Virus record (IMG/VR): IMGVR_UViG_3300034198_009850
Span: 1-21,048 of that record
DNA length: 21,048 nucleotides
Source of the DNA: a virus
Direction: 5' to 3' (one strand)
Positions 1 through 17,234 of this stretch are shown piece by piece. A program made the position numbers and the translations under genes. Under the pieces are notes generated by a model that saw nothing but the letters and a program-made list of their open reading frames with translations, was not told where the DNA came from and did no database searches. How positions within the stretch are numbered: position 1 is the stretch's first letter; every line of letters starts with the position of its first letter.

Positions 1-38
1 ATGATGGGTGTATTACCTGGTTTAAAACAGTAGGATAA
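1..38 (+). CDS. 3' end of an upstream gene (partial)
   Basis: Only the last codons of a gene that begins outside the window are present, so its product cannot be identified. Two frames are possible. Frame 3 ends DGCITWFKTVG with TAA at 36-38. Frame 1 would end MMGVLPGLKQ with TAG at 31-33. I prefer frame 3 because every complete gene in the window stops with TAA and because it leaves the short spacing typical here. By position this could be another baseplate hub or wedge gene, but that is inference. Confidence 0.4.
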   Translation, partial: DGCITWFKTVG

Positions 39-41
39 AAA

Positions 42-734
42 ATGGCAGATACTTTACCACAAACTTCAAATGAAAATTTAACCTCTAAAAATAGCGGAGA
101 TGCATCGACAACTGGAACACCAACGATTGTTCCTTTGGCCAGAAGTCAAGTTGCAAATACTTTTATTGATGTAGCAAATCATAATTTGGCACACTCATGC
201 GATTTTATTTCTGAACTGCAACACAATACTAAATTAAAAGAGTGGATTAATTCGAATGCTCATACTATTAGAGAAGGCATTCGTGATATAATGAGATTGT
301 TGGGTTTAGGTGATGCGACAGGTCAATTTACTTGGTTAAAAGATGCATTACAAACACTCACAAGAGCATTAAAATGGATTCAAAAGAATGTAATAAAACC
401 TATTCTTGATTTTGAAAAATATGTGGTCCAATATATTGCTAAACTTACCGCAATTATTGCTTGGATTGCTAGTTTACCTGCAAGATTAGCCGCACTATTA
501 GCAGATTGTTCCGCCAGATTAATTAGATTGGTTGGAAGTGTTTTTAGTGATTTTTTAAGTGAATCAACAACAAATGCTGGATTGGGTGAAGTGTTTACAG
601 CTGCAAAAGAAGCAGCCGGAACATTGGTTCAAACTGTTGGTCAAGCTGCAACGGCAGCTCAAGGCGCTTTAGCAATTGCTTCAGCAGCACAACAATTACC
701 TAATTTGGTGGCACCGTTGAAGAAAGGTATATAA
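42..734 (+). CDS. Hypothetical alpha-helical protein preceding the spike gene
   Basis: I do not recognise this 230-residue protein. The first 35 residues are polar and Ser/Thr/Asn-rich. Residues about 45-165 look strongly helical, with amphipathic stretches and a hydrophobic, Ala/Leu/Ile-rich run near 130-170 (AKLTAIIAWIASLPARLAAL) that could be a buried helical bundle or a membrane-associated segment. Residues about 180-225 are Ala/Gln-rich and end in basic KKGI. There is no signal peptide. AGGA at 32-35 lies six bases upstream of the ATG and supports this start. The stop overlaps the spike gene's start in a TAATG junction, so the two are probably translationally coupled. A structural or hub-assembly role is inferred from context only. 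Confidence 0.75.
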   Translation: MADTLPQTSNENLTSKNSGDASTTGTPTIVPLARSQVANTFIDVANHNLAHSCDFISELQHNTKLKEWINSNAHTIREGIRDIMRLLGLGDATGQFTWLKDALQTLTRALKWIQKNVIKPILDFEKYVVQYIAKLTAIIAWIASLPARLAALLADCSARLIRLVGSVFSDFLSESTTNAGLGEVFTAAKEAAGTLVQTVGQAATAAQGALAIASAAQQLPNLVAPLKKGI

Positions 735-1510
735 TGGCAATTAACCCATCTCCGTCTAATAACTTATGGACAGAGCCAGAATCAGCGGCAAATGCTGATA
801 ATCAACCAGTTTATCCATATAATAATATACAACAGACAGAAGCAGGTCATTCCTTTGAGTTGGATGACACTCCAGGTCGTGAACGAGTTAGGTTACAGCA
901 TAGAGCAGGCACTTTTACAGAAATGCATCCTAATGGTGACCAAGTAGTTAAGGTATTGGGAGATGGATATGAGATTATTGCCAAAAATAAGAATGTAATG
1001 ATTTCTGGCGCTTGTAATATTACAGTTAAAGGTGATTGTAATTTACAAGTGGAAGGCAATAAAAATGAAACTATTACTGGAAACTATTTTTTAGAAGTTC
1101 GTGGTAGTATGATTGCCAGAGCTGCAGGTTCAGACGGTATGACACTTATTTCCGATTCTGATATGTCGATTCAATCCAATGCCTCTGCAACGGGTGCTTT
1201 GTATATCTCTGCTGGTGACCATGTTTATGTTGCTTCAGACATTCAAACAGCTGGTACAATTTCTGCTGATGTGATTAATGCGGAATCCAGAATTAATGCT
1301 GGTACTGGTTTGTATGCAGGTATTCAAGGTGTTTATTCACAAGGTCCAATCACTTCATTGATATCGATGCAAGCACCGCTGGGCACATTTGCAATTATGG
1401 ATGCGGTTTTAATGACCGACACAATTAACTCAGCAATTTTTAGTTCACACATACACCCAACACCAAAAGGACCCTCAGGTCCACCAACCACACCGTTTTT
1501 TGGAGTTTAA
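734..1510 (+). CDS. 5: Baseplate central spike, gp5 C-terminal type (no lysozyme domain)
   Basis: This 258-residue protein resembles the C-terminal spike part of the T4 gp5/VgrG superfamily, a trimeric beta-helix at the baseplate tip that punctures the outer membrane. Residues 36-70 hold the family signature (ETEAGHSFELDDTPGRER type, then HRAGTFTEMHPNGDQ). Residues 72-125 give short valine/isoleucine-alternating repeats (NVMISGACNITVKGDCNLQV) expected of an intertwined beta-helix. The C-terminus has HIH at 239-241 followed by a Pro/Gly-rich tail (HPTPKGPSGPPTTP), like the iron-binding HxH tip of phage P2 gpV. T4 gp5 has 575 residues with an OB-fold and lysozyme; neither is seen here. AAAGG at 723-727 and the TAATG overlap support the start. 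The beta-helix assignment is firm; use of the gp5 name is by family and position. Confidence 0.85.
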   Translation: MAINPSPSNNLWTEPESAANADNQPVYPYNNIQQTEAGHSFELDDTPGRERVRLQHRAGTFTEMHPNGDQVVKVLGDGYEIIAKNKNVMISGACNITVKGDCNLQVEGNKNETITGNYFLEVRGSMIARAAGSDGMTLISDSDMSIQSNASATGALYISAGDHVYVASDIQTAGTISADVINAESRINAGTGLYAGIQGVYSQGPITSLISMQAPLGTFAIMDAVLMTDTINSAIFSSHIHPTPKGPSGPPTTPFFGV

Positions 1511-1513
1511 ATA

Positions 1514-2296
1514 ATGGCAACAGTTAATAATGCAACTGGAGTATATGCGACACTAAATTACAACTTTAGTGACCCGAACAACTATGTAGAAAATTTATCA
1601 GCAAATGCGGTGGCACATTTAAATGCGATGCCTGCTTTTATTCAATCTTGGCAAGCACAAGATATCGCAAATAATACTGTTGGTGGATATTTTCAAAATC
1701 CTGTTGTGGGTTATGTAAATACAATTATTACAGTATCAAATCAGATGAATGTGGCTGCCAATTCAGCTAATATCGATTCAATTACAATTGCAGCCAACAC
1801 ATTATATTGGGATGCACAAAATTTCTTAGCTCACACCAATAGAATTTCTGGTGTAACAGCGTATACTGGTGATAATACTGTTCCTTACTACAATAATGCG
1901 ATGAATTTAGGTAAAACCGCATTATATATTACTAATCAAACAGACAATATTACAAATACCGCACCTATTATGGGCAGTTTTACTAGTATTTTAGTTGGAC
2001 CACAGATTTATAGTTCGGCCAATACAATGTCTGCCGACTACATTATTTTGACTGCCGGTATTAGTGCAAACAATTTATCTAATTCACAAATCACACAGAT
2101 TTTGTCTGATATTGCAAATACCGACAGTTTATTAGTAACTAGACAAAATGCAGATGTAACCTATTTTACTAATTTGCAGACTTTTGTTAATAATTATAAT
2201 ACCGTTAAACAATTCTCAAATATGGGTGAAACACAAACCTATTTGTTGAATAATTTTATTGGCACCGACAAACTAAAATCAAGGATTAATTCATAA
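1514..2296 (+). CDS. Hypothetical phage structural protein between spike and gp25
   Basis: I do not recognise this 260-residue protein. It is rich in Asn, Thr, Ala and Ile and has no Cys, signal peptide or obvious membrane segment. Several stretches read as amphipathic helices with regular hydrophobic spacing (residues about 25-50, 68-105, 190-255). The segment SANIDSITIAANTLYWDAQN sits near residues 91-110. GGAG at 1502-1505, eight bases before the ATG, fits a ribosome binding site, and only three bases separate it from the spike gene. Composition and position within the late cluster suggest a virion or assembly component. The gene ends just before the only long intergenic gap in the window, so it may be the last gene of a transcription unit. 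Confidence 0.75.
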   Translation: MATVNNATGVYATLNYNFSDPNNYVENLSANAVAHLNAMPAFIQSWQAQDIANNTVGGYFQNPVVGYVNTIITVSNQMNVAANSANIDSITIAANTLYWDAQNFLAHTNRISGVTAYTGDNTVPYYNNAMNLGKTALYITNQTDNITNTAPIMGSFTSILVGPQIYSSANTMSADYIILTAGISANNLSNSQITQILSDIANTDSLLVTRQNADVTYFTNLQTFVNNYNTVKQFSNMGETQTYLLNNFIGTDKLKSRINS

Positions 2297-2789: not shown

Positions 2790-4862
2790 ATGGCAGGCGT
2801 TAATTCCAACATTCAAATCACAGATTTGGATTTTAATCTAATTAAAACCAATCTAAAAAAATATTTACAGTCACAAGACACATTAAAAGACTACAATTAT
2901 GAAGGTTCTGCCCTTTCAAATCTTTTAGATATTCTGGCATACAATACTCAATATAACGCATACTATTTGAATATGGTTGCGAATGAAATGTTTTTGGATT
3001 CTGCTTTGCAAAGAAGTTCTGTGGTATCTCATGCAAAATTGTTAAATTATACTCCAAAATCCGCATCTGCACCAAGAGCTGAAATAGATTTAGTAATGCA
3101 TGGCGTTACTGATTCATCTTTAACATTACCAACATTTACTAGTTTTCTTTCAGAATCAATTGATGGTACAAGTTATAAATTTGTAACTTTAAATTCAGTT
3201 ACAAACAATACAGATATGGCCAATAATACAGTAACATATTCAGGTTTAGTTATTAAACAAGGTGAACCAGTTGGTTTAACATTTACATATGATTCAGCAG
3301 CCAATCCGTCAGCAATTTTTGAATTGCCAGATTCAAATGTAGATACTACAACAATTACCGTTACTGTTCAACAAAGCAATTCAAATACCTATTCACAAAC
3401 ATATAATCTTGTAACAGACTATCTTTCTTTAGGACCAACATCACTTTCTTATTTCTTGCAAGAAGGCACCAATGGTTACTATCAAATTTATTTTGGTGAT
3501 GGTGTTTTAGGTAAAGCATTGACAGATGGTAACATTATTTCTATTTCTTATATTGTAACACAAGGAGTATCTGCTTCAGGTGCCAACAATTTTGTATTGA
3601 TGAATACTATTTCTGGTTATTCTGTGAATACAATAACTCCAATTTCTGGTGCAACACAAGGTGCAAACAAAGAAAGTATTGCATCAATTAAATATTCGGC
3701 ACCTAAATCTTATTCAGCACAAGGTCGTGCAGTTACTAAAGAAGATTATATTTACTTGATTCAAAACAATTCAGGTATTTTTCCAATTGATGCAGTTAAT
3801 GTTTGGGGTGGTGAAGAAAATAGTCCTCCAATTTACGGTGCTATTTTTGTTGCTATCAAACCAAAAGGTGGTTATTTGTTGACCGAAACACAGAAACAAA
3901 TTATTACTAAAGAGATTATTAAACCAATTTCTGTATTGACTGTTCAACCTAAGATTATTGATGTTGATTATACTTATTTGGTAATAAATTCAAATGTATT
4001 ATATGACCAAAAATTAACCAATTTAACTTCTGCACAGTTAGAATCACAAACATTGTCAGCAATCAAAAACTTTGGAAACAATACTTTAAATACATTTAAT
4101 TCTACATTCCAATTATCATCTTTGATTTCTGCGGTTCAATCAGTAAATCCTTCATTTATTACTAATGATGCGAATATTGCATTACAGAAACGATTTGCAC
4201 CAAATTTAAATACATCAGCTTCATATACATTTAAATTTGGTACTGCACTCAAAAAAGATGTGTTTGGTAAGAGTGTAAGCGCAACACCAAGTTTTCAATA
4301 TATTGATACTAAGAATAATAGCGTAGTTCGTGAAGCAGTTTACATTGAAGAAACTCCTTCATCAACAACCTATATTGATTCCATTTCAGTTGTAAATCCT
4401 GGTTTTGGTTATACATCAACACCAGTAGTAACTATTATTGGTGATGGTTCTGGCGCAACTGCTGAAGCAGTAGTAGTAAATGGTCAAGTTAAGTCAATCA
4501 ATGTTACTAATGCAGGTATCAACTATACACAAGCACTAATTCAAATTACTTCTACTGATGGTAATGGTGCATTGGCACAAGCAACTGCAATTTTGGCAGG
4601 CAATAAAGGCACATTGAGAACTTATTATTTCTTAAATGGTGTAAAGAATATTTTAAATGCCAATGCTGGAACAGTAGACTACTCTGCTGGTACTGTAACG
4701 CTTACAGATTTTAATCCTTCTGCAATCAATAATGGATTAGGCATACTAAGTATACAAGTTGTACCAGATTCAACCATCATTTCTTCAAGTCAAGATAAAA
4801 TTATCACACTAGATACAACAGATACAAACGCAATTAACATTAATGTTGTTGCTAAATCCTAA
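2790..4862 (+). CDS. 6: Baseplate wedge subunit gp6 (baseplate J-like)
   Basis: At 690 residues this is close to T4 gp6 (660). gp6 dimers form the iris-like ring that joins neighbouring wedges. The N-terminus carries the characteristic NLLDILAYNTQYNAYYLNMV helix region (about 44-63) and SVVSHAKLLNYTPKSA. A baseplate J-type core follows, with YYQIYFGDGVLGKAL near 230-244 and SYSAQGRAVTKEDY near 307-320, then NVWGGEENSPPIYG near 337-350. Residues 531-602 form a Gly/Tyr-rich beta module (GFGYTSTPVVTIIGDGSGA) that also occurs in other proteins of this window and is not something I know from T4 gp6. A weak AGAGAG at 2773-2778 precedes the start. The stop overlaps the next start by one base (TAATG). 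Confidence 0.95.
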   Translation: MAGVNSNIQITDLDFNLIKTNLKKYLQSQDTLKDYNYEGSALSNLLDILAYNTQYNAYYLNMVANEMFLDSALQRSSVVSHAKLLNYTPKSASAPRAEIDLVMHGVTDSSLTLPTFTSFLSESIDGTSYKFVTLNSVTNNTDMANNTVTYSGLVIKQGEPVGLTFTYDSAANPSAIFELPDSNVDTTTITVTVQQSNSNTYSQTYNLVTDYLSLGPTSLSYFLQEGTNGYYQIYFGDGVLGKALTDGNIISISYIVTQGVSASGANNFVLMNTISGYSVNTITPISGATQGANKESIASIKYSAPKSYSAQGRAVTKEDYIYLIQNNSGIFPIDAVNVWGGEENSPPIYGAIFVAIKPKGGYLLTETQKQIITKEIIKPISVLTVQPKIIDVDYTYLVINSNVLYDQKLTNLTSAQLESQTLSAIKNFGNNTLNTFNSTFQLSSLISAVQSVNPSFITNDANIALQKRFAPNLNTSASYTFKFGTALKKDVFGKSVSATPSFQYIDTKNNSVVREAVYIEETPSSTTYIDSISVVNPGFGYTSTPVVTIIGDGSGATAEAVVVNGQVKSINVTNAGINYTQALIQITSTDGNGALAQATAILAGNKGTLRTYYFLNGVKNILNANAGTVDYSAGTVTLTDFNPSAINNGLGILSIQVVPDSTIISSSQDKIITLDTTDTNAININVVAKS
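4380..4595 (+). other. Gly/Tyr-rich beta module in gp6
   Basis: gp6 residues 531-602 contain two units of the pattern I-x-V-x-(N/D)-x-G-x-x-Y-(T/x)-x-x-x-V-x-I followed by Gly-rich GDGSGATAEA or DGNGALAQA. Similar units occur in the gp7-like protein, gp8 and the 2084-residue protein. Confidence 0.7.
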
Positions 4863-7759
4863 TGATTAAAAACGATTATAAAACTTCGTTACTGGTTGCA
4901 GAACAACTACCAGAGTTTATTCGAGATAATCTCGATTACCAAACTTTTGTTTCTTTTTTAGAAGCATACTATCAATGGTTAGAAACTGCTCAATCATCTA
5001 ATTCAGCAGTTACCATAGCAAGCACATCTGGTGAAGGTGTAACTTACGCATCCAAAAATCTTTTAGATTATACGGATGTTGATACATCTTTGGATGGTTT
5101 TGTCAGTTACTTCATGGCTGATTTTTTACCGTATATTCCTGAAGATGCTTTAACAGACAAGAGAAAACTTTTAAAGATTGCAAGAGAATTATACAGAAAT
5201 AAAGGTACTGAAAAATCTTATCAGTTTTTGTTTAAAGCATTGTATGGTAAAGAAGCAACCATCTTTGAAACTTCCGATGTCATTCTTCGTGCATCTGATG
5301 GTAAATGGATTGTTACAAAATCAGTAAAAGTTAATTCATTTGACCCTAATTGGTTACTAATCAACAATCTCAGAATTGTTGGTGAAACTACCAAATCGAT
5401 TGCAACAGTAGATTATGCATCGGCAACAGGAACAAAAACAGAAATCTTTATTTCAAATATTCAAAGACTATTTCATTCAGGTGAGATTGTTCGTGTTGTT
5501 GATAATAATAATTTGGATGTTTATTTTTATGATGGCCAAGTTTACATTCAAAATGGCCAAGAAATTCCACCTGGTGCAACAACATTATTTGCCAAAATTG
5601 TTGGTGTAATTTCATCTATCAAGATTAATCCCAATTACAGAGGACTATATTATAATACTGGTGATCCAGTAATTGTTACAAATGGATTAAGTCCTGATGT
5701 TACAAACCCTATTGGCGCAACTGCAACTATTGGTACAGTCACGACAGGTGGTATTTTAAGTGTTGTATTGACTGACCCATCAAATGGTTATAGAGTTTAT
5801 CCCAACTCATCAATCACTTTTACAGGCGGTGGTGGTTCAGGCGCAGCTGCACACATCAATTTGATTGACGAAACAAAGTTAGCCAATCTTACAATGATAT
5901 CTGCAAACTCATTAGGTATTGTTGCAAATACTGTGATGGGAAGCACATCAAATCCTGTAAACTATACTAATTTTTCAAAACCTGCAAACACAAATTCAAA
6001 ATTATCTGATGCTTTAACTTTTGTTACACTACAAGTTGGTCCAATTGGTTCTGTTCTCTTAGATAGTCCAGGTTTAGGTTATACTGGTGCTCCTGCAATC
6101 TCAGCTTCTGCATCATATCTTACAGACATCAGTTTACCAACTGATATTGGTGCATTAGGAATTTTACAACCGATTAAAATTAATAATGGTGGTATTGGTT
6201 ATAGTAATGCAAATACAGTATTGATTATTGGTGGCACAGGTCATGGTGCATATGCCAATGTGACTGTAAACACCGCAGGTTCTATTATCTCTGCACGATA
6301 TGTTTATGAAGCCAATAATACGATTCACAGTTATCCATTAGGTGGTTTAGCATATACAACTGATTTAATTCCTTCTGTTAGTATTCAAAACGATCCAGGT
6401 TTGGGTGCAAACCTTTCAATTCCTGGCATCATGGGTATTGGTGCAAGTATTTCACCAACAACAGATAAAACTGGTTCAATTACAACAATTAACATTTTAA
6501 ATCCTGGTGAAGATTATATTTCTGCACCAAATGTTTCATTAAAAGTTGCTGATGTTGCAGTTTATAATATTGATACAGTTCATCTTCCAGAAAAAGGAGA
6601 TATCTTCTATCAAGGTGCTTCTTACAATACAGCAACATACTCAGTTACTTTAGATTCTATTACTAAATTAACTACTGCTTTCCCAATTGATCCACTACAA
6701 GATGTTTATCAATTAAGAACATACGACTATACTGGCACATATAATAATGGTGCTCCTTTAAAGTATGACAGAAAAGTAAGTAATGTAACCACAACATATA
6801 CTGTATATCCAACAAACTATTATTTGGATAGTAATAATAATCCAACCAGTATCAAACGATATGGTGATGGTAATGCAAAAGCAACCGCATCTTTCTTAGA
6901 TGGTTTGATTGTTGGTCAAGGTAAGTGGTTAAATGTTGATGGTCAATTATCTTCATTAGGTTTAGTATTAGAAAGTAAAGATTATAATAATTACACTTAT
7001 GTTCTTTCAGTAGAAAAAGCACTCGCAACTTATAAAGATATTGCATTAAACCTTTTACACGCTTCTGGCACTAGAATGATAGGCAGAAATCTATTAAAGA
7101 GTGCAAATGGTTTTACAATTACCACAGAAGATGTATTGCAAAAAGGTTATCATATGGGAACCGCATTTGGTCCATCAACCTATGCAACCATAGATTCCCA
7201 AGGTGGTGAAATTAGTACCAATATTATTCATTTCCATAATATGATTGGTTCTAATATTGCAGATAAGATTTTTGTTAATGACTACATCGAATATACTGCA
7301 ACCAATAATGTTAAAGTATATTCTGAGGTAACAAATGTAGATTATACCAATAATCAAATTACAATTCAAGATAATGTGTTTGTTTTATTTGCTAATGTTG
7401 CAACAGGATACGCAAATGCCTCCTCAAATGTGATAAATATATCAACGGTTACTGGACAATACGATGGTAACTTTAGTAATCCAACACCAGCAAACAACAT
7501 CATCTTTGTAGGTGATACAGTTTCATTAAATGGTGGACCATTCTATACAGTCCAACAAGTCTTTAGTAATGGCAATATTCGGGTCGCAAATAACTCTTTT
7601 GGACCAATCAATAATGCATACATTACAGTAAACAAGAGTGCAAATACACAAGATGTAATCATCTATGGTGTCATAGGTGAGTATACATTTCCACAATTAT
7701 TAACAGAGAATGGTTACATTTTAAATAGTGAATCAGGTAACATTCTATTAGCGGGGTAA
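4862..7759 (+). CDS. 7: gp7-like baseplate wedge protein, rearranged
   Basis: This 965-residue protein shares landmarks with the C-terminal part of T4 gp7, the wedge arm protein that binds gp10, gp8 and gp6. LPEFIRDNLDYQTFVSFLEA (about 16-35) parallels T4's DSNFEAFCEAYIQYL region, and LYRNKGTEKSYQFLFKALYG (about 110-129) parallels T4's STKGIEASYKFLFKVLYNEE. Residues about 690-746 (DGQLSS, then YKDIALNLLHASGTRMIG) parallel T4's SRWKSDVIRFVHPVGFGF. The large N-terminal part of T4 gp7 is absent. Residues about 286-566 instead hold several Gly/Tyr-rich beta units, and residues 747-965 are an unassigned, beta-rich C-terminal extension. There is no clear ribosome binding site; the TAATG overlap with gp6 suggests coupled translation. 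The family link is good; the gene number is by homology plus order. Confidence 0.82.
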   Translation: MIKNDYKTSLLVAEQLPEFIRDNLDYQTFVSFLEAYYQWLETAQSSNSAVTIASTSGEGVTYASKNLLDYTDVDTSLDGFVSYFMADFLPYIPEDALTDKRKLLKIARELYRNKGTEKSYQFLFKALYGKEATIFETSDVILRASDGKWIVTKSVKVNSFDPNWLLINNLRIVGETTKSIATVDYASATGTKTEIFISNIQRLFHSGEIVRVVDNNNLDVYFYDGQVYIQNGQEIPPGATTLFAKIVGVISSIKINPNYRGLYYNTGDPVIVTNGLSPDVTNPIGATATIGTVTTGGILSVVLTDPSNGYRVYPNSSITFTGGGGSGAAAHINLIDETKLANLTMISANSLGIVANTVMGSTSNPVNYTNFSKPANTNSKLSDALTFVTLQVGPIGSVLLDSPGLGYTGAPAISASASYLTDISLPTDIGALGILQPIKINNGGIGYSNANTVLIIGGTGHGAYANVTVNTAGSIISARYVYEANNTIHSYPLGGLAYTTDLIPSVSIQNDPGLGANLSIPGIMGIGASISPTTDKTGSITTINILNPGEDYISAPNVSLKVADVAVYNIDTVHLPEKGDIFYQGASYNTATYSVTLDSITKLTTAFPIDPLQDVYQLRTYDYTGTYNNGAPLKYDRKVSNVTTTYTVYPTNYYLDSNNNPTSIKRYGDGNAKATASFLDGLIVGQGKWLNVDGQLSSLGLVLESKDYNNYTYVLSVEKALATYKDIALNLLHASGTRMIGRNLLKSANGFTITTEDVLQKGYHMGTAFGPSTYATIDSQGGEISTNIIHFHNMIGSNIADKIFVNDYIEYTATNNVKVYSEVTNVDYTNNQITIQDNVFVLFANVATGYANASSNVINISTVTGQYDGNFSNPTPANNIIFVGDTVSLNGGPFYTVQQVFSNGNIRVANNSFGPINNAYITVNKSANTQDVIIYGVIGEYTFPQLLTENGYILNSESGNILLAG
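5717..6559 (+). other. Cluster of Gly/Tyr-rich beta units in the gp7-like protein
   Basis: Residues 286-566 of the gp7-like protein hold at least four units of the recurring module, centred on SNGYRVYP (about 308-315), GLGYTGAP (404-411), GIGYSNAN (444-451) and GEDYISAP (549-556). Two are followed by Gly-rich turns (TGGGGSGAAA, GGTGHGAYA). They lie between the two gp7-like landmark regions. Confidence 0.7.
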
Positions 7760-9560: not shown

Positions 9561-10967
9561 ATGGCAACAGCAAACTCATCCGCACAATTACTTCCAGCAG
9601 GTAGACTATATGAAGTATTACAATACTACTATGCTCCAGCAGGTGCAAGTGCGATTCAATCTAATATTAATAACTTGTATGGATTTCTTGGACGAGTTAC
9701 TCCATGGGATGATGACAATAATCCTCCTATTCCTACACAAGATGATTATTCAGTCAAACAATATTTCAAGGATATTATTGCAGCCAAGTTAATCACTTCT
9801 TCTGATGTTGGTGCAGTTATTCCTCGTAGAGATTGGGAATCTGGTATTGTTTATGATTATTATGATGATACAGTAAATATGCTTGAACAAAGTTCAGACG
9901 GACTTACTGTTAAAAATTTCTATGTTAGAAACAAATTTGACCAAATATTTAAATGCCTTTGGAATAACAATGGCGCCGAATCAATAAATGAACCCCAATT
10001 TTTACCAGGAACATTTGATAATACATTCTTAGTAAAGACTGCTGATGGATATAAATGGAAATTTATGTATTCATTGGATGCTGGTTTGAAACAAAAGTTT
10101 TTTGATACAAATTGGATGCCAGTACCAGTAGGAGTTAGTATTCCAAATCCAGTATCAACATATGCAGCTCAAGGTTCAATCGATGTAATCAATATTACGA
10201 CAGTAGGAGAAGGATATACTTCTGGTGGAGTTACAATTAATATTGTTGGTGATGGCCAAGGTGCAGAAGCTATTCCATTAGTTAATGCTGCTGGTTATTT
10301 GTATGATGTTTCTATGGCCAATACAGGTCAAGGTTATACATTTGCTCAAATTAGTATTGAACCTAAAGTTGGTTACGATGCACCCACAGTTGTAGCAGAA
10401 GCTTTTGCACCTATTTCTCCTATTGCTGGTCATGGTTATGATCCAATTAGTGAACTTGGTTGTAATCATGTGATGGTTGGTATTGAATTTATTGAAAGTG
10501 AAAATAGTAAATTATCAACAAACATGACCTATCATCAAATTGGTTTATTAATTGATCCTGTTTCTGTTCAATCAGTATCTCAAAATCCACCAACACTAGC
10601 AAACACTTCTTTCTATGATGCAACTACCCATTTATTTGTTTCGCCTGGAACCGGTGAATTTACATCAGGTCAAGTAATCTATCAAGGCGCAAGTCAAACA
10701 AATTTCTCATTTATTGGAAGAATTGCTAGTTTCGACCCAGCATCCAATGTGGTGAAGGTCATAAATACAATTGGTACACCGACAAAAAATCAAGCTTTAA
10801 TTCAAGACCCTAATGGTCCTGTTGCAGGCGCTATTAGAACTATTTTAGATGTCCAAGACCCCGACTTCATAACCTTCTCTGGATATATGACATACATAGA
10901 GAATAGAACAGGTGTTGTTAGGAGTGCGGACGGCACCGAACAATTCCGTATTGTCCTAAGATTTTAA
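9561..10967 (+). CDS. 8: Baseplate wedge subunit gp8 (enlarged)
   Basis: The match to T4 gp8 (334 residues) is clear at separated blocks. FLGRVTPWDDD (42-52) corresponds to T4 FGRSEPWSSN; AVIPRRDWE (85-93) to AVIPRRDWG; DGYKWKFMYSL (162-172) to DGYVWEYLFEI; YHQIGLLIDPV (324-334) to FRQISIITNPL; and the C-terminal GYMTYIENR and QFRIVLRF to T4 GEMIYMENR and EINILFTF. In T4, gp8 dimers bind gp7 and gp10 in each wedge. The extra length, 468 residues in total, comes from a Gly/Tyr-rich beta module at 206-282 and a second insertion around 345-425 containing GEFTSGQVIYQGASQ. The 13-base upstream gap has only a weak AGAGA ribosome binding site. Confidence 0.93.
   Translation: MATANSSAQLLPAGRLYEVLQYYYAPAGASAIQSNINNLYGFLGRVTPWDDDNNPPIPTQDDYSVKQYFKDIIAAKLITSSDVGAVIPRRDWESGIVYDYYDDTVNMLEQSSDGLTVKNFYVRNKFDQIFKCLWNNNGAESINEPQFLPGTFDNTFLVKTADGYKWKFMYSLDAGLKQKFFDTNWMPVPVGVSIPNPVSTYAAQGSIDVINITTVGEGYTSGGVTINIVGDGQGAEAIPLVNAAGYLYDVSMANTGQGYTFAQISIEPKVGYDAPTVVAEAFAPISPIAGHGYDPISELGCNHVMVGIEFIESENSKLSTNMTYHQIGLLIDPVSVQSVSQNPPTLANTSFYDATTHLFVSPGTGEFTSGQVIYQGASQTNFSFIGRIASFDPASNVVKVINTIGTPTKNQALIQDPNGPVAGAIRTILDVQDPDFITFSGYMTYIENRTGVVRSADGTEQFRIVLRF
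10176..10406 (+). other. Gly/Tyr-rich beta module inserted in gp8
   Basis: gp8 residues 206-282 contain two units (VGEGYTSGGVTINIVGDGQG and NTGQGYTFAQISIEPKVGYD) between blocks that are conserved with T4 gp8. T4 gp8 has no counterpart, so this is an insertion relative to the T4 protein. Confidence 0.75.
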
Positions 10968-10979
10968 TGGAAAGAAAAA

Positions 10980-13900
10980 ATGACAATCAATTTTAATGTA
11001 GACCCATACTATGATGACTTCGATGCTGGAAAGAACTACCATCGTATTCTTTTCAAACCAGGTTATGCGGTTCAAGCTCGTGAATTAACACAGTCACAAA
11101 CCATTCTTCAAAACCAAATCACAAGTTTTGCTGATGCCATTTTTGCACAGAATACTCCTATTTCTGGTGGTAAAGTTACTGTCAATCAAAATGTCTACTA
11201 CTTAAAATTAAATACACTCGATGATTCTGGTGCAACTGTTGTTGCTTCACATTTTGCCAATGGTGTTATTCATAATGCTTCTGGTAGTGTTGTTGCAAAA
11301 GTTGTTGCAGCCGTAGAATCAACCACAACTGCTGGCGGCGGTGCTGGTGATACTCCTACATTGATTGTTTCTTACATTTCAGGTAATCAATTTGTTAGTG
11401 CAGAAAAATTATATTTGACAGGTTCAAATTATACTGCTACATTGATTACTTCTGCTGTTGGTAATATTGCAACAGGTTTAAGTTCTGTTGCTTCTATTGC
11501 CAAAGGTATTTTCTATGTTCAAGGTAACTTTGTTGTTGCAAATGAACAAACAATCGTTCTTTCCAAATACAATCAAAATCCATCCGTTCGAGTTGGTTTA
11601 AATGCCACAGAAACGGTAGTCGATTCAACTTCAGATTCTACATTGTTAGACCCAGCATTTAATGCTACAAACTATCAAGCACCTGGCGCAGACCGTTATC
11701 AAATTAATTTAACTCTTGAAACTAGAGCTCTTACTTTTGGTGATGACAGCAACTTTATTGAATTGGTTCGTTTAGATGCCGGTTCTATTGTTAAACAAGT
11801 TGATGGCACAGTATATTCTGTTATTGATGATTACTTTGCAAAACGCACCAATGATACCAATGGTGACTTTGTAGTTAATGATTATACATTAACACCTAAA
11901 GCAAACACAGTCAATCAGGACCAATATGATATTGGTATCTCTAAAGGTATTGCATATGTTCGTGGTTATCGTTTAGAAAATCAAAGCGATGTTAAATTAA
12001 CCAACGACCGTGCAAGAACATCTGTAACAGTATCCAATCACGGAACATTTCTTGACTATGGTAACTATTTTTATGTCAATTCTGCAAACGGTGTCTTTGA
12101 TGTTACAACACAACCACAAGTAGATTTCCATACAGTAAGCAAAGATAATATTGTATTAACAAATGCTAATTCATACAATTCTACAAAAGCTGCAACAGGT
12201 TATATTCGTAACTTAATTTATTCAAGCACATCTAATACTGCAAATGGTTTGGCATATGTTTACAAAGCATATGTTTATAATATTCAAAATCAAACATTGT
12301 CTGGAACTGCAAGAACAACATCTGCAAATAATACCTATATTGCTTTGCCAACTACATCCAATCAATTCTCAAATACTACAAATGCTTACTATCATGTAAC
12401 AATCAGTATTGATTCTGGTACTTCTGCTGGCGATTTTAGAAACATTGTTAATTACGATGCTGGCGCCAAGATTGCTTATGTCGATAGACCATTTACAGTT
12501 CCACCAGATTCAACGTCTGCATTTACTTTACGATTTGACACAACAGACTTTGAAACAATTATCAAAGCAACTTCTGGTACACCTTATACTATTACTGCAA
12601 ACACCACTATTGATAATTTAAACAAAGTAAATAGTGTTGCTAACAATGATACACAATTACAAAATCCAAATGCACCAGAATTAGTGTTCCCTGTTGGTAA
12701 TCCATTTGTAAGTTCTGTTGCAGATACTTCTTATACTACAACACAAGTATTCAGAAACGTTTCTTTCTCTGGTGTTGGTACTATTTCAGCGACCTTAACT
12801 TTTGGTTCCGCACCTTCAAGCACATTACAATTTTTAGGTAATGGTTCTTTAAGTCAAGATGCGATTGCACAAAACTTTTTAATTATTGTTACTGACCCAC
12901 AATCTAGTGGATTAAAAGCTGGTCAAGTTATTCCTTGGGGTATCAATGGTAGAACTTGTACCATCACTGGTGGTGCTACAGCTGCGTTTTCAGCAACTGA
13001 TGTAACTGCATTTACCGCAACAGTTATTGCTAAGATATATGTAAATGCTGGTAATGATACTTCTTATGTTTTGAAATCCAAAAATTTGGTTACTGCAAAT
13101 ACTTCAGGTGTAAATTATTCAGGCACAGTTGTTAATACAAATACAAAAGTTGATTTAACAAATGGTCAAGTATATGTTCAATATGCTGGTTTAGTTGCAC
13201 CAGGTCAACCACAGAAATTATACATTACTGATGCAAAACGTATTGTAAAAATTATTGACACCAAATCTTCTGGTACAGTTCCAACAACTGCAATGTTGAC
13301 CAACACAACATATGATGTTACAAGTAACTTTACTTTTGATAATGGTCAAAGAGATTCATATTATGACCATGCCGCTATTACTTTAAATGTTGGTGCACCA
13401 GCAATTCAAGGTAATTTGTTGGTTCTTTTAGATTACTATTCAACAACAGGTGGTGATGGTTATTATTCTGTAATGTCTTATTTGGCACCAGCATCTTCTG
13501 CACCAGAATCATATGCATCTATTCCAAGTTATACAAGTAGTTCTGGAACGTTCTATCAATTAAGAGATTGTTTAGATTTCAGACCTTCATTATTAAATGC
13601 ACAAGCAAACTTTACAATCAGAACATCAAGTTCAGGTTCTAATGCTGCTGGTGCTTATATTGCCGATGATTTAACAATATTTAATTCCGATTATGGATAT
13701 TACCTTGGTCGTTACGATAAACTTGTATTGAGCAAAGACAAATCATTCCAAATTATTCAAGGAACACCTTCAACAAATCCAATTCTACCAACAGAACCAG
13801 ATGGTTCATTGGTAATTGCAAATCTATATCACGATCCATATACAGCTTATATTCCAGGTGAATCAACTGGCGTATTACCAAATCTTTCTATGGAGAAAGT

Positions 13901-16900
13901 AAAACATAAGCGTTGGTTGATGAGTGATATTTCTAATTTAGAAAATCGTGTAAACAATGTGGAATACTATACTGCATTGAACTTGTTAGAACAAGGTGCA
14001 GCTGCACTTCAAGTACCAGATGGCAACGGATTAAACCGTTTCAAGAATGGTATTTTGGTTGATGACTTCTCAAGCTATGCTACTTCTGATACAAGTAATC
14101 CAAGTTACTATGCTTCTATTAATCGTAGAACAAAACAAATGACTGCGGCACAAGTGGTTAAAAACTTCCCACTACAACCACTTTCACTTGTTTACAATAT
14201 GGGTCAATTAGACCAAACAAGTTTGAATAACTTAGGTTATAATATTTCTAAAGCTGTTAATTCTAATTTCTTTACATTGAATTATACAACAGCAAATGTT
14301 GTAACTCAACAGATTGCATCACGCACAGTTAATTTAAACCCATTCTCAGTATCATTAAATTCTGGTACTATGAGTTTAAGTCCTCCAATGGACAATTGGG
14401 TTGATACACAAAAATCTCCAGACTTGTTGTTGGTTGATCCTAACTTGCAAGTATTCCAAGCAAGTAACAATGTAAACGTATTGTCTGTTGGTGATTGGAA
14501 AACAATTACTGGCACAACAACAACTTCATCAACAAATACTATTGGTCATGGAATTAATCCTTCACCATATGGTTTTGTTGGTTACTCGACACATACAACT
14601 TCAACATATTCTTTACAATCACAGACTACCATTTTAGGTAACTATGATAAGTTAGGTTCTAGTTATGTTGAAACTTCTGGTTATATTAAAGACATTTCTG
14701 TTCTGCCATATATCAGACAACAGTTCTTACAGTTCAACACATATGGTTTGGCAATCAATACCAATGTTCATGCCTATTTTGATGGCGTTAGTGTTGATAA
14801 GTATATTCGCAAATTAAGTGTATTAGAATTAACTGGTGTAACCGGTTCATTTACAGATGGTGACATTGTTGGTTACTATTCTGGTGGTACATTTACTCCT
14901 ATTGCAAAAGTAATTTCTTATTACAATTACACAAGTGATACAACTAAGTGGCGTCTATACATTGTTGGTATGGTTGGTGCAAACTTCAATACTGGCAACA
15001 CATTACAAAATGCACAGTTTAATAGTTCTGGTCAGTATCAATCTACTACTGCTTCAGGAACTATTCTTTCTTATACACACAACTCCGGTTCAATTGTAAA
15101 CGCAAATACAACTACGACTATTACATTGTCCAACAATGCGGCTAATACCGACATTTATAGTGGTCAAACAATGTATGTTATCAATGGTACCGGTGCAGGT
15201 CAATCTGCAAATATCTCATCATACAATCCAACAACTAAGTTGGCAACATTAAGTTCTGCAATCACCGCAGCTAATAATGATATCTACTCAATCGGTTCTT
15301 TAGTAACTAACGAAGCAGGTATGATTTCTGGTATGTTTGCATTACCTGGTTCTACATTCTATACAGGTCAAAGAACTTTCAGAATTGATAATAGTGTAAA
15401 CAACAATAAATCAAGTGCAACTACATTTGCAGAATCTACATTCTACGCAGCTGGTTTACAACAAACTAAACAAGGTGTAAACTATGCATCTTCTATTGAT
15501 GCCGCTAAGAATACATTTGTTGATACTCAAACACAAACAAATATTTCTTCTTATAGTTACACAACTCCATGGGATCCTGTTGCACAAACATTCATCATTG
15601 ATAAATCTAACTATCCAAATGGTTGCTTTGTTAGTGGCGTCAAATTGTTCTTTGCAACTAAAGCTTCTGAATATTCTCCTGTAACAATCTCTATTGTTGG
15701 CACAGTAAATGGTTACCCAAGTGGTGATACATTAGACCACTCTCAAGCTACTTTAACTGCTGAGAACATTAAAACAACAATTTCACCACAGTATTTGGAT
15801 CCAGATTCTTATACAGAATTTAAGTTTGATGCTCCTGTGTATTTGGAAGCTAACAAGTTATATGCTTTAATTGTTAAGTGCCCAAGTTCTAATGAATACA
15901 CAATTTATACTGCACAAAATGGTGATACTGCAATTGCATCTTCTACTAAAAATTTGCCAACTGATCCAGCACCAAGCACAGTAACTAAGATTAGTTCTGC
16001 ACCATATGTTGGTTCATTATTTGTGTCACAAAATTCACAAACATGGACTGCTGACCAAAATGAATCAATGATGTTTGTTATTGACCGTTGCGTATTCAAT
16101 ACTGCTTCTAATCCACAAATTCAATTTGTGGTACCTAAAAAATTGCCGTATCGTAAACTCACAGGTCAAGATGTTAATTACTATTTAAATGCTAATAATA
16201 TCTCTAGTTCTATTACTGCATTTGCAAATACTGATATTACAGCAGATGCATTTAATATTACAACGACAGATTTTATTCCTGGTTCAACTGCATTAAGTTA
16301 TACTTACACTTCTCAATTGGCTTCTGGTAGTATGGCACCTAATGCTGGTGTAACTCCAGGTAAATATGCTACCGCAACATATGATGACATTTATTTGAAC
16401 GATGGTTTGGGTAGTCGTAAGTTGGTAGCAAACTCTGATACATCATTCTCAGTATATGCACAGATGTCTACAAATGATGATGCAGTATCTCCAATGATTT
16501 CTGATGATGGTTTGAGTGTATATGCTATTGATTGGCAAATTAATAATTTAGGTTTGTCAAACAATGTAATTACTGTTGCAAATGGTGGTTCTAGTTACAA
16601 CGCAAATACAATTGCAGTAACAATTACTTCTGCAAACGGATTTGGTTCTGGTGCAACCGCTACTGCTAATGTGGTTGGTGGTGTAGTTAAAAATATTTAC
16701 ATTACAAATGCAGGTTCTGGTTACGCAACAACACCTACAATTACCGTATCAGATGGTTTAACTGGTAGTGGTGCCGTCATTACTGTTGCTGGTGAAACTT
16801 CAGCAATTGGTGGTAACGCACTCGCTAAATATTTGACCAAGAAAGTTGTATTAGACCAAGGTTTTGATTCTGGTGATTTGCGTGTATACTTTACTGCATA

Positions 16901-17234
16901 TCGTCCAGTCAATACAAACATCTATGTTTACTATAAGATACTTTCTAGAAACGATACACAGACATTTGATTCTGGTAATTGGCAGTTAATGACTTTAATT
17001 AACAATACAGATTCGTTGTATTCACCTACAAGAAATGATACTTATGAATTTGTGGCTGCACCTGGTGCAGGTAATGCCGCACAAAATTATGTTTCATATG
17101 TAAGTAATGTAACGAATCAAACTTACAATAATTTCAACCAATTTGCAATTAAGATTGTCTTGGCAACTTCAGATGGCACAGCCGTACCGTTCTTGACAGA
17201 CATGAGAGCAATTGCATTACCATCGGCGGTGTAA
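10980..17234 (+). CDS. Giant virion structural protein, DUF4815-type N-terminus
   Basis: This is the largest gene, 2084 residues. The N-terminus (NFNVDPYYDDFD, then HRILFKPGYAVQARELTQSQ, 5-41) is the signature of the DUF4815 family of phage structural proteins. Residues about 971-1065 (RWLMSDISNLENRVNNVEYY, then LNRFKNGILVDDFSS) and about 1530-1650 (PWDPVAQTFIID, GVKLFFATK, VNGYPSGDT, PVYLEANKLYALIV) match blocks conserved in large structural proteins of T4-like marine phages. Two GTGAGQ/GTSAGD-type units occur near 478-520 and 1403-1440. A Gly/Tyr-rich beta module lies at 1863-1945. GGAAAG upstream of the ATG fits a ribosome binding site. By position after gp8 it may stand in for T4 gp9/gp10 at the wedge periphery and anchor fibres; this is inference. 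Confidence 0.85.
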   Translation: MTINFNVDPYYDDFDAGKNYHRILFKPGYAVQARELTQSQTILQNQITSFADAIFAQNTPISGGKVTVNQNVYYLKLNTLDDSGATVVASHFANGVIHNASGSVVAKVVAAVESTTTAGGGAGDTPTLIVSYISGNQFVSAEKLYLTGSNYTATLITSAVGNIATGLSSVASIAKGIFYVQGNFVVANEQTIVLSKYNQNPSVRVGLNATETVVDSTSDSTLLDPAFNATNYQAPGADRYQINLTLETRALTFGDDSNFIELVRLDAGSIVKQVDGTVYSVIDDYFAKRTNDTNGDFVVNDYTLTPKANTVNQDQYDIGISKGIAYVRGYRLENQSDVKLTNDRARTSVTVSNHGTFLDYGNYFYVNSANGVFDVTTQPQVDFHTVSKDNIVLTNANSYNSTKAATGYIRNLIYSSTSNTANGLAYVYKAYVYNIQNQTLSGTARTTSANNTYIALPTTSNQFSNTTNAYYHVTISIDSGTSAGDFRNIVNYDAGAKIAYVDRPFTVPPDSTSAFTLRFDTTDFETIIKATSGTPYTITANTTIDNLNKVNSVANNDTQLQNPNAPELVFPVGNPFVSSVADTSYTTTQVFRNVSFSGVGTISATLTFGSAPSSTLQFLGNGSLSQDAIAQNFLIIVTDPQSSGLKAGQVIPWGINGRTCTITGGATAAFSATDVTAFTATVIAKIYVNAGNDTSYVLKSKNLVTANTSGVNYSGTVVNTNTKVDLTNGQVYVQYAGLVAPGQPQKLYITDAKRIVKIIDTKSSGTVPTTAMLTNTTYDVTSNFTFDNGQRDSYYDHAAITLNVGAPAIQGNLLVLLDYYSTTGGDGYYSVMSYLAPASSAPESYASIPSYTSSSGTFYQLRDCLDFRPSLLNAQANFTIRTSSSGSNAAGAYIADDLTIFNSDYGYYLGRYDKLVLSKDKSFQIIQGTPSTNPILPTEPDGSLVIANLYHDPYTAYIPGESTGVLPNLSMEKVKHKRWLMSDISNLENRVNNVEYYTALNLLEQGAAALQVPDGNGLNRFKNGILVDDFSSYATSDTSNPSYYASINRRTKQMTAAQVVKNFPLQPLSLVYNMGQLDQTSLNNLGYNISKAVNSNFFTLNYTTANVVTQQIASRTVNLNPFSVSLNSGTMSLSPPMDNWVDTQKSPDLLLVDPNLQVFQASNNVNVLSVGDWKTITGTTTTSSTNTIGHGINPSPYGFVGYSTHTTSTYSLQSQTTILGNYDKLGSSYVETSGYIKDISVLPYIRQQFLQFNTYGLAINTNVHAYFDGVSVDKYIRKLSVLELTGVTGSFTDGDIVGYYSGGTFTPIAKVISYYNYTSDTTKWRLYIVGMVGANFNTGNTLQNAQFNSSGQYQSTTASGTILSYTHNSGSIVNANTTTTITLSNNAANTDIYSGQTMYVINGTGAGQSANISSYNPTTKLATLSSAITAANNDIYSIGSLVTNEAGMISGMFALPGSTFYTGQRTFRIDNSVNNNKSSATTFAESTFYAAGLQQTKQGVNYASSIDAAKNTFVDTQTQTNISSYSYTTPWDPVAQTFIIDKSNYPNGCFVSGVKLFFATKASEYSPVTISIVGTVNGYPSGDTLDHSQATLTAENIKTTISPQYLDPDSYTEFKFDAPVYLEANKLYALIVKCPSSNEYTIYTAQNGDTAIASSTKNLPTDPAPSTVTKISSAPYVGSLFVSQNSQTWTADQNESMMFVIDRCVFNTASNPQIQFVVPKKLPYRKLTGQDVNYYLNANNISSSITAFANTDITADAFNITTTDFIPGSTALSYTYTSQLASGSMAPNAGVTPGKYATATYDDIYLNDGLGSRKLVANSDTSFSVYAQMSTNDDAVSPMISDDGLSVYAIDWQINNLGLSNNVITVANGGSSYNANTIAVTITSANGFGSGATATANVVGGVVKNIYITNAGSGYATTPTITVSDGLTGSGAVITVAGETSAIGGNALAKYLTKKVVLDQGFDSGDLRVYFTAYRPVNTNIYVYYKILSRNDTQTFDSGNWQLMTLINNTDSLYSPTRNDTYEFVAAPGAGNAAQNYVSYVSNVTNQTYNNFNQFAIKIVLATSDGTAVPFLTDMRAIALPSAV
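16566..16814 (+). other. Gly/Tyr-rich beta module near the C-terminus of the giant protein
   Basis: Residues 1863-1945 contain two units with the same spacing as in gp6: ITVANGGSSYNANTIAVTIT followed by GFGSGATATA, and IYITNAGSGYATTPTITVSD followed by GSGAVITVA. The match to the gp6 unit is the closest among the copies in this window. Confidence 0.75.

Follow-up and report, generated by a model that had tools for sequence, protein, structure and literature searches.

Two ways of sharpening the needle of contractile systems are known, which are a separate PAAR cap, as in T4 and T6SS, and a self-tied metal apex, as in P2, phi92, and pyocins. The gp5 protein of T4 is one chain that is proteolysed between residues 351 and 352. 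As described in PMC10715212, the apices solved for P2, phi92, and the R2 pyocin each hold iron through six histidines contributed by three chains, and PAAR proteins with zinc close the T4 and T6SS spikes; the His-x-His (HxH) apex also appears in PMC11448403 and PMC11821841. The beta-helical spikes of P2 (gpV), Mu (gp45), phi92, and the R2 pyocin end in a C-terminal HxH with a short Gly/Thr/Pro tail, as does the spike described here. Several named phages that lack this tip, including P-HM2 and Melnitz, carry a gp5 that is divided over neighbouring genes, and a gp5 without T4-type lysozyme occurs too, the P-HM2 record giving no match to PF00959.

Here, we describe the spike locus in IMG/VR virus record IMGVR_UViG_3300034198_009850, of which positions 1 to 21,048, the whole stretch that was analysed, are referred to as the window. 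The spike resembles T4 gp5 in its homologous gp5C beta-helix with an SGHxxExDDTPGxER entry segment, in the OB domain encoded within the same gene cluster, and in the hub and wedge genes that surround it. It differs from T4 in that three genes (OB, helical, and beta-helix) are found in place of one, that OB is not part of the spike's own chain, that the lysozyme domain between OB and beta-helix is missing from the proteins scanned, and that the chain ends in HxH, whereas the T4 end is capped by the PAAR protein gp5.4. We consider it probable that the OB, helical, and beta-helix parts of gp5 have come to be encoded by separate genes and that a His-x-His apex formed by the spike itself has taken the place of the PAAR tip, a reading that draws directly on the gp5C homology, the stand-alone gene, the HxH found in every complete relative, the OB gene, and a PAAR search of related records that returned no match.

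The spike gene and its homology to T4 gp5

The features of the spike gene and the gene that adjoins it are as follows.

734..1510, + strand: stand-alone gp5C-type central spike protein of 258 aa (intact ORF; Pfam, PHROG, PDB profile, and structural alignment)
806..1288, + strand: gp5C/VgrG-type beta-helix part, residues 25-185 (structural alignment; pLDDT about 72-95 in the AF2 monomer)
1514..2296, + strand: ORF of 260 aa, function unassigned, adjoining the spike; an ORF of like size and similar sequence follows the spike in five relatives' loci

On sequence grounds, the N-terminal two thirds of the spike is T4 gp5 C-terminal family. The window spike by itself matches the Pfam family Gp5_trimer_C at E=2.3e-4 with 21.7 bits, which is below the family cut-off of 30.9, and Gp5_C as a second family. 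Its match to PHROG_430 (gp5; E=2.6e-40) is confined to profile positions 316-455 of 868. Scans for relatives gave 124 spike loci, of which nine were omitted because they were cut by a contig end or, for L128, broken in frame, leaving 115 complete spikes (set 1); a 92% identity filter reduced these to the 52 of alignment A1, and 40 of those 52 make up alignment A2. A second set comprised 67 loci from a profile scan (L136-L202), some on contigs shared with set 1, and the two sets hold 130 distinct complete proteins. Gp5_trimer_C is matched by 50 of the 52 members at E<=10, and the profile built from all 52 finds PDB chains of T4/KP1 gp5 with E-values of about 5e-25 to 2e-29 (T4-type gp5 at 1.8e-29), from T4 residue 372 on. 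The beta-helix of P2 gpV belongs to a different family, Phage_spike (PF18715; 4.6e-28 in the P2 control); the list of 21 families that the 52 members match at E<=10 does not include it.

The AF2 monomer aligned (VIA-align) with VgrG 9jg9 at a Z of 8.3 (rmsd 2.3 over 153 residues) and with T4 gp5 1k28 at a Z of 5.3 (rmsd 6.0 over 178 residues), and 1wth, the structure of the S351L mutant of T4 gp5, was among the structures found for the spike. Residue 1 of the model falls on T4 gp5 residue 366-368, and since T4 gp5 is cut at 351/352, the gene begins near the start of mature gp5C. The first-pass annotation had described a spike without lysozyme or OB domain that starts shortly before its signature, and indeed the Pfam scan gives neither domain in the 258-aa protein, of which GHSFELDDTPGRER begins 37 residues after the start. 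The accompanying description of the protein as almost entirely beta-helix holds for residues 25-185, which are covered by the gp5/VgrG alignment, and fails for residues 186-258, which form a separate module. The possibility that the spike is a frameshift-broken piece of a longer gp5 was rejected, because the gene has its own start, overlaps the preceding stop by 1 base, and has the same boundary in relatives. One relative (L202:2623-3855) encodes a spike of 410 aa with an extra N-terminal stretch of ~140 residues, probably helical, ahead of the gp5C part.

The 260-aa ORF gave no family above cut-off in Pfam/PHROG scans and no PAAR match. It occupies the place of PAAR or other hub genes in some T4-like phages.

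OB and helical genes upstream of the spike

Upstream of the spike, the window contains the following.

1..33, + strand: last 10 codons plus stop of a gp5 OB-fold gene of its own, the rest of which lies outside the window; reads MMGVLPGLKQ*
42..734, + strand: gene of a 230-aa helical protein, separate here; stands at the place of the T4 gp5 lysozyme domain and has homologues upstream of the spike

The OB gene has ~100 codons; that of the nearest relative (L002) ends MMGVLPGIKQE and matches Gp5_OB in Pfam (E=2e-6) and PHROG_430 (E=3.5e-32, positions 12-110). It had been suggested that the OB-fold would come from another gene, perhaps the one cut at the left edge, or be absent; the former stands, as positions 1-33 match the OB end in L002, and the latter was rejected because a profile search of 141 distinct loci found an OB domain upstream in 123, while the 18 without one have less than 1,500 bases of sequence there. 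This count used 141 distinct loci out of 181, with L203-L208 omitted. OB has its own gene in 98 of the 141, and 25 carry an OB-helical fusion. P2 gpV is unlike the window spike in this respect, its OB domain being part of the same chain.

A helical homologue was recognised in 125 of the 126 upstream ORFs examined. The AF2 model of the helical protein is all-alpha and of low confidence (pTM 0.35), and the helical and OB proteins scanned against Pfam and PHROG gave no lysozyme family. Two cysteines (C53 and C156) are invariant across the 64 homologues of alignment A3, which holds 64 of 75 proteins. Compared with the single gp5 of ten named phages, the helical family profile gave hints only (probability 33 for P-HM2 and 7.6 for syn9). 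Read by eye, the gp5 of cyanophages also appears to include a long helical region at this place, and the comparison is only suggestive of a common origin of the two.

The separation of OB and beta-helix chains into neighbouring genes is shared with P-HM2 (PHM2_025/026; L087:3206-6864) and Melnitz (L082:8001-11044), both as annotated, and, by our own reading, with S-SRM01 (L217:5983-8578) and AG-345-D19 (L215:5974-8482). These four differ from the window spike in having no HxH module; the P-HM2 beta-helix, for example, ends EIYLN. In Melnitz, a PAAR-like gene (match below cut-off) adjoins gp5, and none was found in the 30 spike records searched. HTVC008M, which is among the closest cultured phages with 40% identity over 71% of gp6, has by eye a short gp5 of OB and beta-helix without lysozyme, but this gp5 is a single chain that ends PIDLN, and a PAAR-like ORF, likewise recognised by eye, lies near gp25.

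The C-terminal module and the tip of the spike

The last 73 residues of the spike contain the following features.

1289..1507, + strand: C-terminal module, residues 186-258 (aligned C-termini); occupies the place of the I-x-L-N end of several named relatives
1448..1456, + strand: HIH motif (H239 and H241), proposed metal-binding apex by analogy, conserved among relatives
1457..1507, + strand: Pro/Gly-rich tail of 17 residues, PTPKGPSGPPTTPFFGV, likened to the ends of P2 gpV and Mu gp45

The window spike ends ...SSHIHPTPKGPSGPPTTPFFGV, in agreement with the HIH and Pro/Gly tail noted in the first-pass annotation. From the window alone this is weak evidence, as shuffling the last 45 residues 20,000 times gives an HxH in 865 cases; it is the conservation across relatives that makes it strong. 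HxH lies within the last 45 residues of all complete spikes (115/115 in set 1, 67/67 in set 2, and 130/130 distinct proteins), and H239 and H241 are invariant in the 52 non-redundant relatives, in which the middle position holds I, F, V, W, T, Q, N, or R. Both histidine codons switch between CAT and CAC among these 52, so that it is the protein letters that are kept constant. A chance match was therefore rejected. The motif lies 15-24 residues from the C-terminus in 64 of 65 HxH sequences, the remaining one being cut by a contig end, and HxH occurs elsewhere in the protein in just 5 of 66. The ends of P2 gpV (HKHPGDSGGTTGSPL) and Mu gp45 (HIHRGDSGGTTGPMQ) have the same histidine spacing and the same kind of tail, with HxH at a comparable 12 residues from the C-terminus.

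The module of ~70 residues has a consensus around ...AP.GNF....GIMDAVLMTD.IN..IY..H.H..P.GPTGPP..P.... In the AF2 monomer it forms a separate low-confidence part, with a pLDDT of about 46-60 over the tip and a short predicted helix (residues 227-236) directly ahead of HIH. The rows of the structural alignment barely reach past residue 185 and give no evidence for a new fold there. The module profile gave no match in the PDB at E<=10, and PHROGs gave nothing convincing on the spike C-termini. Pfam Apex (PF18946), too short a model to be decisive, matched 1 of 40 spike C-termini at E=0.0073, below cut-off as were P2 (0.0016) and Mu (0.35). In tblastn searches of 50,697 phage records, the 74-aa query from the window found nothing at E<=10, and a second query from the module found one match (E=6). 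Taken at the sequence level, a P2-like, self-capped HxH tip seems to have been placed on a T4-type spike.

A form with a related ending was seen in a T4-like contig in a Chloroherpeton MAG (L203:6891-8750), with similar gene order and an OB-containing ORF (Gp5_OB, 3e-7). Its spike reads NHKHADPQGGFVTPP some 40 residues before its end, with HKH followed by ADPQGGFVTPP, which resembles the P2 apex and may be another, or an earlier, version of the tip.

In the proposed mechanism, the spike gene would encode, as a polypeptide of its own, the needle at the distal end of a T4-type central spike. Three such chains would intertwine into a beta-helix like that of T4 gp5C. The OB ring that docks the needle on the hub would be supplied by the separate upstream gene or by an OB-helical fusion. 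The C-terminal ~70 residues would close the needle in place of a PAAR protein such as T4 gp5.4, with HIH at the apex of the trimer, where three His-x-His pairs (six histidines) may hold one metal ion, probably iron by analogy, and the Pro/Gly tails would fold over the metal as in P2 gpV, the phi92 spike, and the R2 pyocin. Upon sheath contraction, the self-capped needle would puncture the outer membrane, and the peptidoglycan-cutting role of T4 gp5 would fall to other structural proteins.

The main competitor to self-capping is a diverged or distant PAAR-like protein that caps the spike, HxH then merely trimming the C-terminus or binding the cap. The PAAR family (PF05488) was not matched in 20 spike-carrying records at E<=1 or in 10 further ones at E<=10; these 30 are mostly the longest of the records behind the spike loci, include records of 179,754 and 108,197 bp, and may be fragments. 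In the control, 8 of 11 named T4-like phages were matched at E<=1 and 5 of 11 above cut-off, the matches of P-HM2 and syn9 being weak and distant from gp5. None was found in phiM12, OLIVR5, and P-SSM2, although these have no HxH tip, so that an absent match supports an absent cap but cannot prove it. This imperfect detection, the possible incompleteness of the records, and the uncharacterised 260-aa gene directly after the spike all favour a hidden cap. Against it stand the lack of any match in the 30 records even at loose E, the two long ones included, and the replacement of the I-x-L-N end of several PAAR-bearing relatives by the HxH module in every spike relative, which together make a hidden cap rather improbable. 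Ends of the I-x-L-x type without HxH were found in the beta-helix chains of HTVC008M, D479, Aeromonas phage 25, Mosig, X1, syn9, S-RIM4, and P-HM2, and the gp5 of Cr30, Melnitz, phiM12, and OLIVR5 continues into further domains. That of Melnitz, read by eye, has an HNH near its C-terminus inside an apparent peptidase domain, so HxH close to the C-terminus can also arise otherwise. The first-pass annotation had named a full gp5 with OB and lysozyme plus a gp5.4-type PAAR gene as the finding that would contradict it, and this combination was not found.

HxH could also belong to a fibre-like receptor-binding domain that binds iron as in T4 gp37 and is no piercing apex. HxH iron sites have been reported for phage tail fibres (PMC11705849), and a P2 gpV C-terminal structure is titled 'host-binding domain' in a reference listed by PMC10715212. 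However, the distance of HxH from the C-terminus is much like that in P2 and Mu, its near-absence elsewhere in the protein and its position on a gp5C beta-helix within the hub gene cluster are at odds with a fibre, and the module is short and conserved rather than hypervariable, which leaves the fibre reading very unlikely. Alternatively, the tip may be self-closed with an HxH that is structural, or that binds zinc, another metal, or none, rather than iron. PAAR tips use zinc, but in P2, phi92, and the R2 pyocin it is iron that the comparable trimeric HxH sites bind (both from PMC10715212), and we regard this variant as unlikely, if less so than a hidden cap. With the self-capped apex as the preferred reading, the earlier proposal of a T4-type baseplate combined with a P2-like tip is borne out by the gp5C spike within a T4-type baseplate cluster and its conserved P2/Mu-like HxH; overall, the first-pass observation is confirmed and its interpretation is supported in part.

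Hydrolase domains, lineage, and implications

On the opposite strand, relatives encode, beyond genes that by eye resemble T4 gp26, tail tube, and head-completion genes, a protein of ~450-840 codons that is transcribed divergently. In 6 of 15 loci this divergent protein has a hydrolase-type domain above the family cut-off in Pfam.

L065:803-2494 and L039:1251-2825, - strand: phage lysozyme domain
L019:1559-3199 and L210:7684-9171, - strand: GH19 domain
L028:2025-3395 and L026:1652-3124, - strand: VgrG3-like C-terminal domain

A further 3 of the 15 have matches below cut-off (GDSL lipase in L010, Hydrolase_2 in L064, and VgrG3-like in L038), and the remaining 6 have none or an unrelated weak Pfam match. 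Among spike records, PF00959 was found in 3 of one set of 20 and in 1 of another set of 10; it was not matched in the P-HM2 and Melnitz records. From gene order, the divergent protein would be a tape-measure or hub protein; a phiM12 neighbour at a similar place is annotated as similar to tape measure proteins. The window ends short of the divergent gene, so that for this phage a hydrolase there is presumed from its relatives.

A profile scan of viral contigs found at least 591 relatives among 600 stretches, the best 80 of which were used, so the spike family is large and bigger than counted. By gp6, the nearest cultured phages (HTVC008M, Melnitz, and Mosig) have about 40% identity or less. For the gp5C entry domain, the tree of all 51 rows requires 4 changes for the HxH group, which is not on one side of a branch but broken up by very long, weakly placed rows (P-HM2, syn9, and OLIVR5). 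After removal of six long rows and of roughly half of the 35 HxH rows, 28 rows remain, 18 of them HxH; in this smaller tree the HxH rows lie on one side of a branch with support 84/96 and in 98% of 200 bootstrap trees; the rows counted as lacking HxH include Melnitz, with its HNH in a peptidase-like domain. From these trees, a single origin of the HxH tip is likely.

Literature searches of partial coverage gave no paper whose title or abstract opening describes a T4-type gp5 with an HxH tip or a split gp5. As a split gp5 and a gp5 without T4-type lysozyme already occur in the named phages above, the novelty lies in combining a T4-type gp5C with a P2-type tip of its own making, which is fixed across a lineage and placed in a gene-split gp5. 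In a joint scenario that we see as evenly balanced between holding and failing, the T4 needle tip was swapped once for a P2-style metal apex in the ancestor of a large uncultured lineage, the spike is assembled from separate OB, helical, and beta-helix chains without gp5-type proteolytic maturation, and the cell-wall enzyme has moved to a neighbouring structural protein that exchanges lysozyme, GH19, and VgrG3-type domains. A T4-type spike apparently uses the self-tied apex throughout a lineage, and the tip thus behaves as an exchangeable module. With a gene boundary near the T4 maturation cut, the spike is a naturally separate gp5C, which helps to ask why T4 cuts gp5 and whether lysozyme must travel with the needle. 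Should the tip bind iron, aquatic phages of this kind would carry it, a point of relevance to the proposal that phages act as iron carriers.

Finally, several baseplate ORFs of the window (2790-4862, 4862-7759, 9561-10967, and 10980-17234) contain, by eye, a repeat of the GxGYTSxPxVxIxGxGSGAxAxA type.
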